64,000 nucleotides of DNA from Lachnoclostridium sp. An118. GTDB lineage: Bacteria > Bacillota > Clostridia > Lachnospirales > Lachnospiraceae. The stretch covers positions 1-64,000 of the forward strand of contig NZ_NFLQ01000017.1 of assembly GCF_002160985.1 (NCBI RefSeq). Reading direction: 5' to 3'. The notes beneath the pieces are model-generated. The model was not told the DNA's origin. It did not search any database and was given only the letters and a program-made list of their open reading frames with translations. How positions within the stretch are numbered: the first letter of the stretch is position 1; every line of letters begins with the position of its first letter. The position numbers and the translations under genes are program-made. Positions 34,224 to 40,896 of this stretch are shown one piece after another.

Positions 34224-34274
34224 CTCTTTAGCATCAACAGAGCATAGAAATATCATAGAAATGAGGTATTGAAT

Positions 34275-35135
34275 ATGAAGCCAATCAAAGAAGGAAAAGT
34301 ACGCGAGATCTACGACAACGGCGACAGCCTGATCATGGTCGCGACAGACCGCATCAGCTGTTTTGATGTGATCCTAAAAAATGAAGTGACCAAGAAGGGC
34401 ACCGTGCTGACACAGATGTCCAAATTCTGGTTCAATATGACCCAGGACATCCTGCCCAACCACATGATATCCACAGACGTAAAGGACATGCCGGAGTTCT
34501 TCCAGCAGCCCAGATTTGACGGCAACAGCATGATGTGCCGCAAGCTGGAGATGCTCCCCATCGAGTGCATCGTCCGGGGCTACATCACAGGAAGCGGCTG
34601 GGCCAGCTACCAGAAGGACGGCACTGTGTGCGGCATCAAGCTGCCTGAGGGCCTGAAGGAGTCCGACAAGCTGCCTGAGCCCATCTACACACCGTCCACA
34701 AAGGCGGAGATCGGCGACCACGACGAGAACATTTCCTACGAGCAGAGCGTTGCCCACCTGGAGAAATATTTCCCGGGAAAAGGCGAGGAGTACGCAGCCC
34801 GTCTCCGTGACTGCACCATCGCCCTCTACAAGAAATGCGCTGACTACGCACTGTCAAAGGGCATCATCATCGCGGACACCAAGTTCGAATTCGGCCTGGA
34901 CGAGGAAGGCAACATCGTCCTGGGCGACGAGATGCTGACACCGGACAGCTCCCGCTTCTGGCCCGCAGAGGGGTATGAGCCGGGACACGGACAGCCCTCT
35001 TTTGACAAGCAGTTTGCCCGCGACTGGCTGAAGGCCAACCCGGACAACGACTGGACTCTGCCGGACGACATCGTGCAGAAGACCATTGACAAATATCTGC
35101 AGGCATACGAGATGCTGACAGGGGAGAAGCTGTAG
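34275..35135 (+). CDS. purC: SAICAR synthetase (phosphoribosylaminoimidazole-succinocarboxamide synthase)
   Basis: The enzyme joins aspartate to CAIR using ATP in de novo purine synthesis. The 286-residue length and motifs are typical of the longer PurC type: KEGKVREIYDNGDSLIMVAT, DRISCFDVILKNEV, ECIVRGYITGSGW, IADTKFEFGLDEEGNI and DEMLTPDSSRFWP. The ATG at 34275 follows GAGG with 8 bases; a TTG two codons earlier is less likely. It is monocistronic here, with its own terminator, not within a pur cluster. Confidence 0.95.
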   Translation: MKPIKEGKVREIYDNGDSLIMVATDRISCFDVILKNEVTKKGTVLTQMSKFWFNMTQDILPNHMISTDVKDMPEFFQQPRFDGNSMMCRKLEMLPIECIVRGYITGSGWASYQKDGTVCGIKLPEGLKESDKLPEPIYTPSTKAEIGDHDENISYEQSVAHLEKYFPGKGEEYAARLRDCTIALYKKCADYALSKGIIIADTKFEFGLDEEGNIVLGDEMLTPDSSRFWPAEGYEPGHGQPSFDKQFARDWLKANPDNDWTLPDDIVQKTIDKYLQAYEMLTGEKL

Positions 35136-35164
35136 ACGGGTTTTTCCATTAAACAGACCATAGA

Positions 35165-35210
35165 AAAAGGGAACTCACAGGTCATTCCCAACCTGGGGGC
35201 TCCCTTTTTT
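35165..35210 (+). terminator. Terminator of purC
   Basis: AAAGGGA...CAGGT and ACCTG...TCCCTTT form an interrupted stem followed by TTT, 30 bp after the stop. Confidence 0.8.
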
Positions 35211-35245
35211 ATCTCCTTATATCCGCACTGTTCGCCTATATCGTT

Positions 35246-35818
35246 CTACTCTTCTATATCGTAAATCTTACAGTCCTTTCCGAACAGCGTGTCGCTGAGA
35301 CTGATCTTCCGGATAAGGGTAATGCGCCTGGCCATGACCTCCGGAGGCTCCGGGTCGCTGCTCATGATCCACTCAACAGCCGTCTGTATGGAGGCGATAG
35401 AATGGTACTTTGTAGCAAAAAGCTGCTCCCTCGACAGGGGCTTCCCGCCATTGTGGTATGTATGCCACCGAATGTCATAGTCCACTACAAACCACAGCAT
35501 AAAGTCCATCAGACAGTTCTGCTCCCGGATGGCGCATGCCTGTTTGAGGAAATTCCGGTAGGCATCTATGTTTCTGTAAAAACTCAGCGTGTTCTCATAG
35601 TATGTAAAATCGGGGTCATTGTTCAGGAAATTCCCCAGCACCTTGTGTTCATAGATCCACTGGATCAGGTCGTTTTTGTCTTTAAATCGATTGTAGAAGG
35701 TCTGCCTGCTGACACCTGTCTTTTTCAGCAGATCCTTGACTGTAATGGAGGCAAGGGGCTTTTCCGTGCACAGCTCCAGCATGGCCTCCGCCAGCATATT
35801 GTGAATATCGATCGCCAT
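35246..35818 (-). CDS. TetR-family regulator, divergent to the flavoenzyme operon
   Basis: This 190-residue repressor has the helix-turn-helix TVKDLLKKTGVSRQTFYNRF near residues 25-45 and a helical ligand domain resembling the DhaS-type TetR C-terminal family (NNDPDFTYYENTLSFYRNI). GGAAG precedes the ATG. It is transcribed away from the OYE-MFS-ADH operon with 266 bp between, where two perfect palindromes lie. The natural reading is that it represses that operon and is released by the operon's substrate. Confidence 0.88.
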   Translation of the reverse strand: MAIDIHNMLAEAMLELCTEKPLASITVKDLLKKTGVSRQTFYNRFKDKNDLIQWIYEHKVLGNFLNNDPDFTYYENTLSFYRNIDAYRNFLKQACAIREQNCLMDFMLWFVVDYDIRWHTYHNGGKPLSREQLFATKYHSIASIQTAVEWIMSSDPEPPEVMARRITLIRKISLSDTLFGKDCKIYDIEE

Positions 35819-35911
35819 ATTACATCACTTCCCGGTTCTCTGCTTCCTTTTTCTTTTGTGACTATTCTATCACATCGCACCGCATATTTCCCCGAAAAAA
35901 GCAGTTATTTT

Positions 35912-35946
35912 TTGACATTTTCAGGTAAATTGTCTACATATAGACA
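35912..35946 (+). promoter_or_regulatory. Promoter with overlapping palindromic operator
   Basis: TTGACA (35912-35917) and TACATA (35935-35940) are 17 bp apart. The palindrome TGTCTA-CATA-TAGACA (35931-35946) covers the -10 box, a classic TetR repression layout. Confidence 0.65.
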
Positions 35947-35989
35947 TCTACTCCCCGTCTGCCTGTCCACAGATAAAACAGTGCCGTGT

Positions 35990-36003
35990 ATCTGTATACA
36001 GAT
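35990..36003 (+). promoter_or_regulatory. Second palindrome in the TetR-OYE intergenic region
   Basis: ATCTGTATACAGAT is a perfect 14-bp palindrome, 82 bp before the flavoenzyme start. Its TCTRTA core is similar to the first site, so both may bind the TetR protein. Confidence 0.5.
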
Positions 36004-36084
36004 GACAGCTCCCTGTTTATCAATTGTAAAACCCCTCCTTATTTGCCATAATTTTAACAAACAAATCCGAAGGAGGAAATTTAA

Positions 36085-38025
36085 ATGCAAGAGAGGAAAT
36101 TATTTACACCTGTAAAAATCGGTCCTATGGAAATAAAGAACCGGTTTGTCATGCCTGCCATGGGAACCAACCTGGCCCTTCACAGCGGCGAGGCGGGCGA
36201 TGAACTGATCTCCTACTACACCGAGAGGGCCAGGGGCGGCTTCGGGCTTTTGATACTGGAATGCTGTGCGGTCCGCTACGACGGAAGATCCCTGGTCAAT
36301 GAATGCGGACTCTGGGATGACTCGCTGATCCCCAGCTACGAAAGGCTGACCGGCTCCGTTCACAGAGAAGGGGCAAAGATCGCGGTCCAGCTGCGGCACT
36401 GCGGACGGGAGACAGAAGAAAAATACACCGGCGGCGTTCCTGTCCTGGCTCCCTCGAAGGTTCCCTGTCCCTCCTGCCAGTCCATGCCCCGGGAGATGAC
36501 AACAGAAGAGGTATACGAGATGGTGCAGGCCTTCGGAGACGCTGCGGCGAGAGGCAAAAAGGCCGGCTTTGACGCAGTGGAGCTCCACGCCTCCCACGGC
36601 TATCTCATCGCTCAGTTCCTGTCCGGGCACGCCAACAAAAGGACGGATGAATTCGGAGGCTCCCTCCACAACCGGATGCGCTTTCTCCGCCTTGTGCTGC
36701 GGGATATCCGAAAAAAAGCGGGAGACGATTTCCCTGTCATTGTCAGGATCAGCGGCTCTGAGATGATCACAGGCGGACGGGAAGTAGAGGAGACAAAAGC
36801 TGTCTGTCAGATGTGCGAGGAGGAAGGCGCGGCAGCCATCCATGTCAGCATCTCCACTTACGGAAGCCTGGCTTACTGTATCGGCTCCACCTATCTGGCT
36901 CCCGGCTATGAGACAGAGGCCGCAGCCAGGGTCAAGAGCTCCGTGCGCATCCCGGTCATCACGGTTGGAAGGTATACGGATCCGGAGATCGCGGAGGCTG
37001 CCATTAGAGACGGAAGCGCCGACATGGTGGCCTTTGGGCGCCAGTCCATAGCTGACCCCCATTTCCCGGAGAAGGTAGAAGCCGGGGACTACGACTCTGT
37101 CATTCCCTGCATCAGCTGCGGGCAGGGCTGCATCATGCATCTTTTTTCCGACGAGCCCATAAGCTGCGTAGTCAATCCCTTCAACAGCACGGAAGAGTCC
37201 TACATCTCCAATAAGACCGAGCATGCCAGGCACGTCCTTGTCGCAGGTGGCGGACCGGGAGGCCTGATGGCTGCCTGGATCCTGGCAGCCAGAGGCCACA
37301 GGGTAGACCTGGCCGAGCGTGAGGATTACCTTGGAGGCGCTTTTCTGCCGGCCGCCTATCCACCCTCCAAGAGCCCTATAGCCAAGATGATCGGCTACAA
37401 TATCCGGCAGTGCAGGAAATATGGAGTCAACATCATGACCGGCAACGAGCTGACCACTGAAAAGATAAAAGAAATCCATCCCGATGTATTGGTCATTGCG
37501 ACCGGGAGCACAAACCTGACCCCGCCCATCAAGGGACTGGACAGCGCCGGCGTGCTGAACCCCTGCGATGTCCTTCTCGGCAAGGCCGTCACCGGGCACA
37601 GAGTCCTGGTGGCAGGAGGAGGCCTGATCGGAGCGGAGACAGCTGATTTTCTGGCAGAGCAGGGCCGGGAGGTAACGGTCATCGAGATGAAACCGGAGAT
37701 TGCAGCAGACCTGGATCCCTACGCAAAGCCCATGCTTCTCAGAGAGCTGAAGGACCACGATGTGACCCTTCTGACAAATGCAGCTATTCAGGAATTCCTG
37801 ACCGACGGCGTCACATACAGCAATCTGGAAGAGGAAAGCGGGACCGTTCGCACGCTGAATGGCTTTGACAGCGTTGTCCTGGCTCTGGGCACAAGAAACT
37901 ACAATCCCTTCGGCCAGGAGTTCCAGGAACTGGCCGACGAGGTATACGTCATCGGGGATGCAAAAAAGGCCGGAAAAGTGTACGCAGCCACTCACGAAGC
38001 AGTAGATGTGGCCATGCGCATCTGA
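36085..38025 (+). CDS. NADH:flavin oxidoreductase, FadH/BaiCD-like, with 4Fe-4S
   Basis: This 646-residue cytosolic enzyme has an N-terminal old-yellow-enzyme barrel (FTPVKIGPMEIKNRFVMPAM, HASHGYLIAQFLSGHANKR), an iron-sulphur site in CISCGQGC and a later ISCVVNPF, and a C-terminal FAD/NAD module (VAGGGPGGLMAAWILAARG, VAGGGLIGAETADFLAEQG). The architecture is that of 2,4-dienoyl-CoA reductase FadH and of BaiCD/BaiH, which reduce conjugated enones including bile-acid intermediates. AAGGAGG precedes the ATG. It is the first gene of a three-gene operon with a transporter and an alcohol dehydrogenase. The substrate is unknown; an enone carried in by the MFS protein is likely. Confidence 0.9.
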   Translation: MQERKLFTPVKIGPMEIKNRFVMPAMGTNLALHSGEAGDELISYYTERARGGFGLLILECCAVRYDGRSLVNECGLWDDSLIPSYERLTGSVHREGAKIAVQLRHCGRETEEKYTGGVPVLAPSKVPCPSCQSMPREMTTEEVYEMVQAFGDAAARGKKAGFDAVELHASHGYLIAQFLSGHANKRTDEFGGSLHNRMRFLRLVLRDIRKKAGDDFPVIVRISGSEMITGGREVEETKAVCQMCEEEGAAAIHVSISTYGSLAYCIGSTYLAPGYETEAAARVKSSVRIPVITVGRYTDPEIAEAAIRDGSADMVAFGRQSIADPHFPEKVEAGDYDSVIPCISCGQGCIMHLFSDEPISCVVNPFNSTEESYISNKTEHARHVLVAGGGPGGLMAAWILAARGHRVDLAEREDYLGGAFLPAAYPPSKSPIAKMIGYNIRQCRKYGVNIMTGNELTTEKIKEIHPDVLVIATGSTNLTPPIKGLDSAGVLNPCDVLLGKAVTGHRVLVAGGGLIGAETADFLAEQGREVTVIEMKPEIAADLDPYAKPMLLRELKDHDVTLLTNAAIQEFLTDGVTYSNLEEESGTVRTLNGFDSVVLALGTRNYNPFGQEFQELADEVYVIGDAKKAGKVYAATHEAVDVAMRI

Positions 38026-38065
38026 CAGCCCGCCTGTCAGTCTGAGCGGAGGAGGAATTTTTATT

Positions 38066-39286
38066 ATGAACAATACCAACCAAAAAAGAAGAAACTTTAT
38101 CAGCGTTCTGGCAGTGTATTTTGCCGCAAATGTCATTTTCATCATGAGCCCTGCCATGAATTCCATTGCCACGGAACTTTACCCGGACATAGCCTACGGC
38201 ACTGTGCTTCTGCTGTCCACTATCTCATCCCTTTTCATGATCCCGGGATCCCTGGCAGCCGGCGCTGTCCTCGGGAAGCAGGTAGGATTTAAACAGATGG
38301 CCGTAGTCTCTCTCGGTGGGACCATCATCGCCGGCGTCCTGCCGTATTTTATCACAAATTTTACCGCAGTCCTTATACTGCGCATCATCGTAGGTTTCTG
38401 CATCGGTCTGGGATTTCCGCTGCAGAGCACTCTTGCCCTGAAGCTTTTTGATGACAGCGAGCGCCCCGGCGTCCTGGGAAAAGCCACCGTGGCCATGTCC
38501 GCCGGCTCTATCATCTATATGCTTGTATCCGGAGCCGTCTGCGACATCAGCGCATCCTATGTCTGGCTCGTCCACGGCATCCTGATCATACCGCTGATCC
38601 TGGTCCTCATCTTTTTGAAGGAACCGGAAAAAAATGAAACCGAACAGAGTATACAAGGCAGTGCAGCGGACAGCTCACAGAACAGCCCCGGCGAAAAGCT
38701 TCCCCTTATGGCAGCCTTCGCCTCTGCCATGTTTATGATCGTGTTTTTCGCCTTCTACCCAATACTTTTGAACATGTCCGCCATTGTGGACCAGGAGGGG
38801 CTCGGCACAGCTGCCGTGACAGGGATCATCTCCTCCCTGTTTACCATCGGTAACGCCATCGCCGGAGTAATCTTCGCAGGCGTATACAAAGCCGCAGGGC
38901 GCTTCACGATCCCCGTCGGGCTTGTGCTCTGGGCCGCGGGAACAGCCATTTTCAGCTTCGGCCACAATCTGCCCATGATCGTCATCGGTGTGGTCGTGTG
39001 CGGGATTGCCGTGCAGATCGTCTGGCCTGGGACGATCAACAGCTTTGCCGGCTATGTCCCGCCGTCAAAACAGAGCATGGCCTCCGCCCTCTTTGTCAGC
39101 GGCATGAATTTAGGCTGCTTTCTCACCAGCTTTTACATCACAGGAGTTGCTGACCTGACGGGAAATGCAGACCCAAGGCTCCCCTGTCAGATCGGACTTG
39201 TCATTGTCATTATATTTGCAGTCATCTGGTCCATAGCAGAGCTGGACCACAACAAAAAGACAGCGTCCACAAAAGACGCCAGATAA
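38066..39286 (+). CDS. MFS transporter
   Basis: This 406-residue protein has about 12 hydrophobic segments with a charged central loop (EPEKNETEQSIQGSAADSSQ). The loop after helix 2 is GAVLGKQVGFKQM, the degenerate MFS signature. The ATG at 38066 follows GGAGGAGG, and an upstream in-frame extension overlaps the flavoenzyme gene without a ribosome site. Between a BaiCD-like reductase and a dehydrogenase it should import the substrate or export the product of that pathway. Confidence 0.9.
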   Translation: MNNTNQKRRNFISVLAVYFAANVIFIMSPAMNSIATELYPDIAYGTVLLLSTISSLFMIPGSLAAGAVLGKQVGFKQMAVVSLGGTIIAGVLPYFITNFTAVLILRIIVGFCIGLGFPLQSTLALKLFDDSERPGVLGKATVAMSAGSIIYMLVSGAVCDISASYVWLVHGILIIPLILVLIFLKEPEKNETEQSIQGSAADSSQNSPGEKLPLMAAFASAMFMIVFFAFYPILLNMSAIVDQEGLGTAAVTGIISSLFTIGNAIAGVIFAGVYKAAGRFTIPVGLVLWAAGTAIFSFGHNLPMIVIGVVVCGIAVQIVWPGTINSFAGYVPPSKQSMASALFVSGMNLGCFLTSFYITGVADLTGNADPRLPCQIGLVIVIIFAVIWSIAELDHNKKTASTKDAR

Positions 39287-39307
39287 AACAAACAGGAGGA
39301 TTTCACT

Positions 39308-40489
39308 ATGAAGATCAATAACTTTGTCTACTGCAACCCTACAAAAATCTATTTCGGAGACCAGCAGCTCTCCCACCTTGCAGAGGAGGTCAAAAAGCAC
39401 GGGGACAAGGCTCTCCTCGTCTACGGAGGCGGCTCCATCAAGAAAAACGGTCTCTATGACAGGATCATGTCCATCCTCTCCGGAGCAGGCATCGAGACAG
39501 CAGAGTGCAGCGGTATCGAGCCCAATCCGCAGTACACCTCGGTCAACCGGGCTGCAAAAATATGCAGGGATGCCGGGTGTCAGGTGGTGATCGCCGTGGG
39601 AGGCGGCTCTGTCATCGACGCTTCCAAGGTGGTCGCCCAGGCAGCCTTTTACGAGGGAGACTGCTGGGATCTGGTGACCAAAAAAGTGGACGAGCCCCGG
39701 GCTCTCCCCCTCATCGCAGTCCCCACCATGGCATCTGCCGGCTCAGAGAACGACGCCTGGGCTGTCATCTCCAATGCGGACACAAACGAGAAGCTGGATC
39801 CCTGGCACGCCGGCTACCAGCCCACCGCTGCCTTCATCGACCCCTCCATCACCTACACGGTGAGCCCCTACCAGACAGCAGTCGGAGCGGCGGATATTTT
39901 CTCCCACATCGTGGAAATCCGCTATTTCCTGAAGGACCCCAAGATTGAATTTGTGAGCGAAATGATGGAGGTGATGGCTGCCAACACAGTAAAATATGGA
40001 GCCATTGCCGTGAAAGACCCGAACAACACGGAGGCCCGCCAGAACCTGTCCTGGCTGTCGGCCATGATCACCGGCGGCATCATGGATATGGGCGGTATCC
40101 AGGACATGGCGCTCCACATGACAGAGTACGGCATTGCCGCCTTCTATGAAATCCCCCACGGCCACGGCATCGCCATCCTCTTCCCCAGATGGATGCAGTA
40201 TGTCTTAAGCGAAGAGACGGCTCCTGTCTTTTACCATTTCGGTCAGAAATGCTTTGGCATCCCTTCCGGACTTGGGGATACGGAGGGTGCGCAAAAGACC
40301 ATCGATGCCCTGAGCCACTGGCTGTATGAGGAGCTGGGGCTTGAGAGCAGGCTTTCCGCCTTCGGCGTCACAGAGGACCGTCTCCACGATATGGCGGTGA
40401 AAGCTACCGGGAACCACGGCGGCATCCTCCACAGCATAACAGACCTGACAACAGATGATGTAGAGCACATTTTCAAGATGTGTCTGTAA
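39308..40489 (+). CDS. Iron-containing alcohol dehydrogenase, butanol-dehydrogenase-like
   Basis: This 393-residue enzyme resembles the YqhD/BdhA group, which reduces aldehydes with NAD(P)H. The cofactor loop is AVGGGSVIDASKVVA. Metal ligands are retained: Asp and His in GAADIFSHIVEIRYF, and the His pair 14 residues apart in ALHMTEYGIAAFYEIPHGHG. It begins 21 bp after the MFS stop behind AGGAGG, so it is the third gene of the operon. With the enone reductase upstream it could act on a carbonyl or alcohol of the same compound. Confidence 0.9.
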   Translation: MKINNFVYCNPTKIYFGDQQLSHLAEEVKKHGDKALLVYGGGSIKKNGLYDRIMSILSGAGIETAECSGIEPNPQYTSVNRAAKICRDAGCQVVIAVGGGSVIDASKVVAQAAFYEGDCWDLVTKKVDEPRALPLIAVPTMASAGSENDAWAVISNADTNEKLDPWHAGYQPTAAFIDPSITYTVSPYQTAVGAADIFSHIVEIRYFLKDPKIEFVSEMMEVMAANTVKYGAIAVKDPNNTEARQNLSWLSAMITGGIMDMGGIQDMALHMTEYGIAAFYEIPHGHGIAILFPRWMQYVLSEETAPVFYHFGQKCFGIPSGLGDTEGAQKTIDALSHWLYEELGLESRLSAFGVTEDRLHDMAVKATGNHGGILHSITDLTTDDVEHIFKMCL

Positions 40490-40599
40490 TACCTCCGCTT
40501 TCCTTCTGGAAATGTAAGGAAGTGTAACTTTGTCACAGAAATCCTTTTGCCTTTTCTGTACAATACAGTTACAACATTTACAGAAGGGATGGAGATATC

Positions 40600-40896
40600 A
40601 TGAAAGTGAAGCTGGATAAACGTCTGACCGACCACATGAAGGAGAAGGGACACCGCCACATCCTGCTCAGCCCCCATGTGTGCTCCACATGAGGCGGCCC
40701 GATGCTGAACATATCAGCAAGGTTTGCTGATCCGGATGAAGCGGCCGCCCTGAAAGCAAATGGTTTCCAGAGCTTCGCCCACGATTTTGGCGAGGTCCTG
40801 ATCTACCGGGAGCCGCTGCGCACGGCTGACACCGTGACCCTCGGTCTCTCCCGCTTTTTTAAGAAGATCACTGTAGACGGGATTTATTCCACATAA
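40600..40896 (+). CDS. Probable selenoprotein, CC/Se-motif type, Sec at codon 31
   Basis: ATG at 40600 has GGAG five bases upstream. The frame runs MKVKLDKRLTDHMKEKG... to HVCST, then TGA at 40690-40692, then GGPMLNISARFADPDEAA and on to TAA at 40896, 98 residues in all. CST-U-GGP matches the Cys-x-x-Sec redox motif of the small CC/Se family, in which other members have Cys at this place. A hairpin with a GGT loop begins 20 nt after the TGA, as a bacterial SECIS should. Codon use and charge are similar on both sides of the TGA, so a nonsense pseudogene is less likely. Role: probably thiol redox or metal handling. SelA, SelB and tRNA-Sec are not in the window. Confidence 0.75.
40690..40731 (+). 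promoter_or_regulatory. UGA codon with SECIS-like hairpin
   Basis: ATCAGCAA (40713-40720) pairs perfectly with TTGCTGAT (40724-40731) around a GGT loop. The loop starts 28 nt after the UGA, inside the 16-37 nt window for bacterial SECIS elements, and has the expected G residues at its start. Confidence 0.7.

Follow-up and report, generated by a model that had tools for sequence, protein, structure and literature searches.

The window analysed here, 64,000 nucleotides (nt) of Lachnoclostridium sp. An118 (contig NZ_NFLQ01000017.1, positions 1 to 64,000, forward strand), very probably holds at 40600-40896 the complete gene of a 98-residue selenium-containing protein that standard annotation would cut at an internal stop, and by comparative standards this is a genuine selenoprotein gene whose recoding mechanism looks ordinary. 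We put a probability of about 0.92 on the whole explanation, namely that the TGA at codon 31 encodes selenocysteine (Sec or U, here Sec31) in a protein that belongs to a divergent branch of the CC/Se group, takes an IscA-like fold, serves in a redox or metal/Fe-S role and has its own promoter. What is new here is the predicted IscA/SufA-like fold, a palindrome upstream of the gene, and a stop-free, mostly serine-bearing branch nested among Sec proteins; ordinary annotation would truncate this gene and those related to it or miss them altogether, and they lie beyond the reach of the family model now available. The coding features, with the evidence for each, are:

40600..40896, + strand: selenoprotein gene, 98 codons plus TAA (translation, homologues, ratio of nonsynonymous to synonymous change, dN/dS)
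40690..40692, + strand: in-frame TGA, predicted selenocysteine 31 (motif C28-S-T-U31-G-G-P, column conservation in relatives)
40713..40731, + strand: hairpin like a selenocysteine insertion sequence (SECIS), 8 bp, loop GGU at 40721-40723 (pairing, covariation, recoding trials, folding energy)

An in-frame TGA kept among relatives

Translating 40600-40896 with TGA as U gives 98 residues with CST-U-GGP, in which U is residue 31 and no Cys lies C-terminal of it (protein P0001), and so one TGA is the sole interruption of an otherwise open frame, as a preliminary description of this DNA had proposed. That description also predicted that ordinary gene finding would return the 3' part or nothing, and the only remnant in a stop-respecting list of open reading frames (ORFs) is indeed a 64-residue ORF at 40702-40896. 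A search with the protein itself finds matches in 6 of 149 other genomes of the bacterial family, each row with one TGA; within the genus, 5 of 10 other genomes match, one of them split across contig ends; and a ten-row profile reaches 28 of 397 family genomes, of which 19 hold a TGA-bearing copy and the other nine stop-free copies only. The relatives include at least Eubacterium sp. ER2 (91%), Claveliimonas monacensis, C. bilis, Faecalicatena contorta and two metagenome-assembled genomes (MAGs), one of Sellimonas and one of Ruminococcus. We define the window branch as the CxTUGG forms plus the close P/CxSU[TA]G forms, leaving out of the counts L031/L032 (a gene divided between two contig ends in G153), counting L067 in the SECIS and promoter tables only, and noting that L038 and L039 are near-identical here. 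L067 (G085:C1:3123186) is a window-type copy frameshifted 3' of the SECIS; the genome it comes from has an intact P/CxSU form as well. Beyond the family, seven other genomes match among 391 of the class, three of them weakly (E 2e-4 or worse), and none of the four translated is window-type; no paper on the window branch was found in the open-access literature.

The Sec/Cys column is the sole one conserved in at least 90% of 51 relatives, and the reading frame beyond the TGA is, judged from substitution rates, under purifying selection, dN/dS against a 92%-identical relative being 0.020/0.234 in the part that follows the TGA and 0.074/0.317 in the part that precedes it, and against one at 80% 0.163/1.470 and 0.081/0.711, in the same order. 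The preliminary description had staked its case on homologues that carry Cys or Sec at this place and do not drift downstream of it; there is no drift, and the TGA stands without exception in the 18 window-branch loci on which the SECIS analysis is based, but the stop-free branch has mostly Ser there, which had not been foreseen.

Two readings that would leave the gene without selenium fare very poorly against this record. One takes the UGA as a true stop, so that a peptide of 30 residues is made and, starting separately at the ATG at 40702, a protein of 64 residues, for which there is the 64-residue ORF itself, and it is highly improbable, given that the Met at this ATG is replaced by Arg, Phe, Tyr or others in relatives, that relatives conserve the two halves in a single frame and at a constant distance, that the stop-free relatives in nine family genomes are single uninterrupted ORFs, and that the TGA codon is the most conserved column. 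A pseudogene with a nonsense mutation, suggested by the one in-frame stop and by the truly broken window-type copy in G085, is just as hard to credit when the same TGA recurs in 11 more window-branch genomes among the 397 sampled and dN/dS is low downstream of it.

The genome itself (3.47 Mb in 57 contigs, the window being part of contig C9) is equipped to read the codon, since selB and tRNA-Sec, whose absence would have spoken against a selenoprotein from the outset, are found over their cut-offs together with selA and selD: tRNA-Sec at 65.5 bits against an Rfam cut-off of 47, with ARAGORN concurring, selB at 363 bits, selA at 617 and selD at 329. A scan of the window alone at Rfam gathering thresholds gave 0 matches. 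The tRNA-Sec gene has yedF, selD, selA, selB and prdA/prdC as neighbours, and prdB (402 bits) carries one in-frame TGA. SelD is probably a selenoprotein too, because its frame (L026:4907-5971) extends 5' of the listed start through an in-frame TGA near the N-terminus (GUAAK), presumably as in the Sec-containing SelD of other organisms.

Across the 397 family genomes tRNA-Sec exceeds the cut-off in 59, of which 17 are among the 19 TGA-bearing genomes, none among the nine with stop-free copies only and 42 among the 369 in which the profile has no match, and it is present in 12 of 12 window-branch genomes. Fisher tests give 8e-6 for 17/19 versus 0/9 and 2e-11 for 12/12 versus 42/369, values that serve as guides, the genomes being related. 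The two TGA-bearing exceptions, G361 and G124, hold the SUCAPP type only, lie in 200 and 320 contigs, and show no tRNA-Sec over the cut-off even under laxer filters. The gene is dispensable, because nine of the ten other genomes of the genus have tRNA-Sec and only five have the gene. On this comparative evidence, SelB and tRNA-Sec would decode the UGA at codon 31 as selenocysteine, with a hairpin 28 nt 3' of the UGA directing the insertion.

The hairpin after the TGA

The 8-bp perfect hairpin with a GGT loop that the preliminary description placed 20 nt (stem) and 28 nt (loop) after the TGA is there at those distances, with the sequence ATCAGCAA-GGT-TTGCTGAT; a stretch of 25 nt that includes it has a folding energy of -8.2 kcal/mol (z -2.95), which 3 of 200 shuffles equal. 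For bacterial SECIS elements, passages of the review PMC13188914 give a loop of 3-9 nt, a stem of 4-16 bp, a G in the first two loop positions, a spacing of 16-37 nt and a minimum free energy of at most -7.5, and a GGU loop, 8 bp, 28 nt and -8.2 kcal/mol all fall within these bounds. Taken alone, however, the hairpin is only suggestive, because synonymous recodings of the same peptide sometimes match it: 103 of 20,000 reach eight pairs around the loop, and 59 of 2,000 pass all four bacterial criteria somewhere in the next 60 nt.

What decides the call for a selenoprotein is that homologues keep the TGA at the same place and that their stems change in compensation. Among 15 distinct window-type sequences the 8-bp stem is formed in 98.3% of cells, four stem pairs are changed on both sides (as many in 3 of 500 shuffles) and 12 cells are double-changed (as many in 0 of 500), and sliding the partner strand lowers pairing to 11.7-46.7%; with three one-codon-deletion forms added, the figures are 94.4% pairing, five double-changed pairs and 14 cells. 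One such case has Ala-GCA and Phe-TTT becoming GCG and TTC jointly. The number of stem pair types does not rise above shuffles (404 and 172 of 500). Codon choice is skewed where the stem encodes the peptide ARF, with GCA in 17 of 18 (20/59 elsewhere in window-branch genes), AGR in 18 of 18 (22/76) and TTT in 17 of 18 (35/62), and the hairpin site forms 0-3 pairs in the six stop-free members in which it can be placed versus 5-9 in the 18 TGA members. In the wider group the element is not uniform: L083 reaches only -0.4 kcal/mol, and a hairpin scan of L088 found none.

A conserved palindrome and changing neighbours

Three further features lie upstream of the start codon, again listed with what each rests on:

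40591..40594, + strand: GGAG, possible ribosome-binding site (read from the sequence)
40523..40539, + strand: palindrome TGTAACTTTGTCACAGA, a candidate operator with its centre at about -41 (conservation upstream of relatives)
40559..40564, + strand: -10-like hexamer TACAAT, 19 nt after the palindromic element (conserved spacing)

Three close relatives share a single conserved block in their upstream DNA. Of 16 window-type genes, 15 have the palindrome TGTRAYNNNRTYACRGA in the 200 nt that precede them, with a TATAAT-like hexamer starting exactly 19 nt after it in all 15 (at most two mismatches; 14 with at most one), the pattern having been derived from the same loci on which these counts were made. 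Loci of the other types lack it upstream (9 SUCAPP, 9 stop-free, 3 P/CxSU, 30 NF041239), and the 30 matches obtained across 464 kb of locus DNA, in which some loci overlap, all lie upstream of window-type genes. Allowing two mismatches, the window has six matches versus 3.2 expected, the only exact one being at 40523; that site scores 21.9, the 13 training sites score 17.8-23.5, and 484 kb of the genome (the window and 21 stretches, about 14%) contain no other site above 14.0. A sigma-70 consensus scan found no promoter, because there is no -35 consensus. As the hexamer starts exactly 19 nt after the palindrome, the centre of the latter would lie near -41, where class II activators bind. The half-site TGTGA would fit Crp/Fnr sites, while as an odd palindrome of 15 nt the element is reminiscent of Fur-type boxes. 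The palindrome is a candidate for a dedicated operator, and the gene would then form a single-gene unit with its own promoter.

Upstream in the window lie genes for a flavin mononucleotide (FMN) oxidoreductase, a major facilitator superfamily (MFS) transporter and an iron (Fe) alcohol dehydrogenase; that the gene follows directly after a reductive operon is thus true of the window, but this arrangement is not conserved, since purC lies directly upstream of the gene in Claveliimonas monacensis (L035). The window's own purC, at 34269-35135, is separated from the selenoprotein gene by a TetR-type regulator along with a three-gene oxidoreductase cluster, the whole arrangement from purC on covering 34269-40489. 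The flanks of 16 window-branch loci share no common neighbour (L034 judged by upstream DNA only); named by eye from translations, the neighbours are ABC transporter genes in C. bilis, CobW-like and alcohol dehydrogenase genes in two Sellimonas-like loci and an alanine dehydrogenase-like gene in two loci. The palindrome and its 19-nt spacing are kept upstream of window-type genes though the other neighbours differ.

Family, predicted fold and possible function

Curated Pfam and NCBIfam models assign P0001 to no family; NF041239, with a curated cut-off of 40 bits, gives no match up to E 10, and its scores against relatives, 28.2 bits for the best window-type one and 25.2, remain below that cut-off. 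Rubrerythrin-like (E 0.014) and DUF7129 (E 0.19) hits were weak, sub-cut-off and set aside. Comparing the profile of ten window-branch proteins with that of 23 NF041239 matches from other families (21 over the cut-off) gives 98.1%, E 1.3e-13 over 92 columns, versus 2-6% for reversed controls, with the Sec/Cys columns aligned. The link to the CC/Se family that the preliminary description had drawn therefore survives as homology by profile comparison, but not as membership at the NF041239 cut-off, and this comparison places the protein in an already catalogued CC/Se (NF041239-like) group, as a divergent branch that no model covers. Near the Sec column the alignment is uncertain by one residue, such that different alignments pair U31 with the first Cys of CC types or with the residue after Sec in SUCAPP types, and for some of the CC-type relatives the Cys at the site carries the same uncertainty. 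Several Clostridia hold NF041239-like matches with two in-frame TGA codons (among them G534:C188:10688, G536:C35:156529 and G620:C29:18924), which may be double-Sec members.

A midpoint-rooted tree of 59 rows and few columns unites window-type, P/CxSU and stop-free forms in one group (99/95), sets SUCAPP (100/97) and NF041239 matches (98/94) apart, and nests the stop-free branch with the P/CxSU forms (98/95). The nine stop-free members have seven Ser, one Thr and one Cys at the Sec column, and their downstream frame is intact; the loci are L050-L052, L054, L056, L060, L061, L063 and L065, in genomes without detected tRNA-Sec. The simplest reading is that Sec was lost without replacement by Cys while the protein was retained, the direction being inferred because the root is a midpoint.

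The confident predicted model resembles IscA/SufA-type structures over its whole length and has the fold of A-type carriers (IscA/SufA/HesB), with Sec31 in the beta2-beta3 turn. Sequence gives fainter signals: PDB yielded nothing convincing (best 8feh_D, E 0.0016, without a passing stretch), NF033940 is matched by one of 51 members (E 0.0037, a weak hint of the HesB fold), and of the profiles compared with HesB (15 HesB-type rows from 20 loci, L110 dropped for stops) A2 alone gives 13%, whereas A5 and A6 reach 70% and 79%, with reversed HesB alignments still at 49% and 35% over about 30 columns and column shuffles reaching the HesB profile score in 0 of 100.

Sec31 is most likely the working residue, with Cys28 as its resolving partner (CxxU), and it would act in a redox or a metal/Fe-S-handling step. 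A plain CxxU selenol/thiol redox protein, without metal or cluster, has close to an even chance: C28-x-x-U31 is present in 16 of 18 aligned window-branch loci, and the review PMC13188914, in the passages concerned, gives CxxU for NF041239, so that the motif is not new, and expects redox roles for such proteins; yet the model search returned no thioredoxin-type match, and Cys28 becomes Pro in two loci (L046, L066) that keep Sec. Handling of metal, an Fe-S cluster or Se/S by Sec31 in the HesB/IscA manner, for which the predicted fold and the alignment of Sec31, in a common U-G-G-P, to the Sec/Cys of TIGR01911-type HesB selenoproteins would argue, is a more tentative proposal, the C-terminal Cys pair typical of A-type carriers being absent. 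It is rather doubtful that the small CC/Se-type selenoproteins, with the window branch among them, form a second Se-bearing lineage within the HesB/IscA fold and act as seleno-scaffolds whose Sec takes the position of the turn cysteine of A-type carriers, here as a single gene with a dedicated palindromic promoter element, a view in which the persistence of the Ser-bearing protein without Sec machinery would imply a role that does not need the selenol. The fold link, the promoter element and the Sec-to-Ser branch make function testable, through metal or cluster binding, the redox partner and the promoter signal.

Compared with known systems, the protein shares the predicted fold of the A-type carriers IscA, SufA and ErpA at about 6-13% identity in structural rows, but lacks the two conserved Cys of their C-terminal tail (PMC7144353, in the part concerned with that tail). 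With the TIGR01911 HesB-like selenoproteins it has U-x-G-P in common (UGGP here, with S for P in several relatives), Sec at the same place in profile alignments and probably the fold, but not the Cys-rich tail that several of them possess, and TIGR01911 matches neither P0001 at its curated cut-off nor anything in the source genome. The SUCAPP paralogue of the same genome (L033:1501-1800, C1:278152) belongs to the same superfamily and likewise has an in-frame TGA and a SECIS-like hairpin, differing in Sec-Cys (TSUCAPP) in place of CxxU, a hairpin one codon further on and no upstream palindrome. NF041239 proteins agree with it in length, layout and Sec/Cys at the corresponding place, whereas the window protein has an extra helix after beta3, its own SECIS sequence and its own promoter element.
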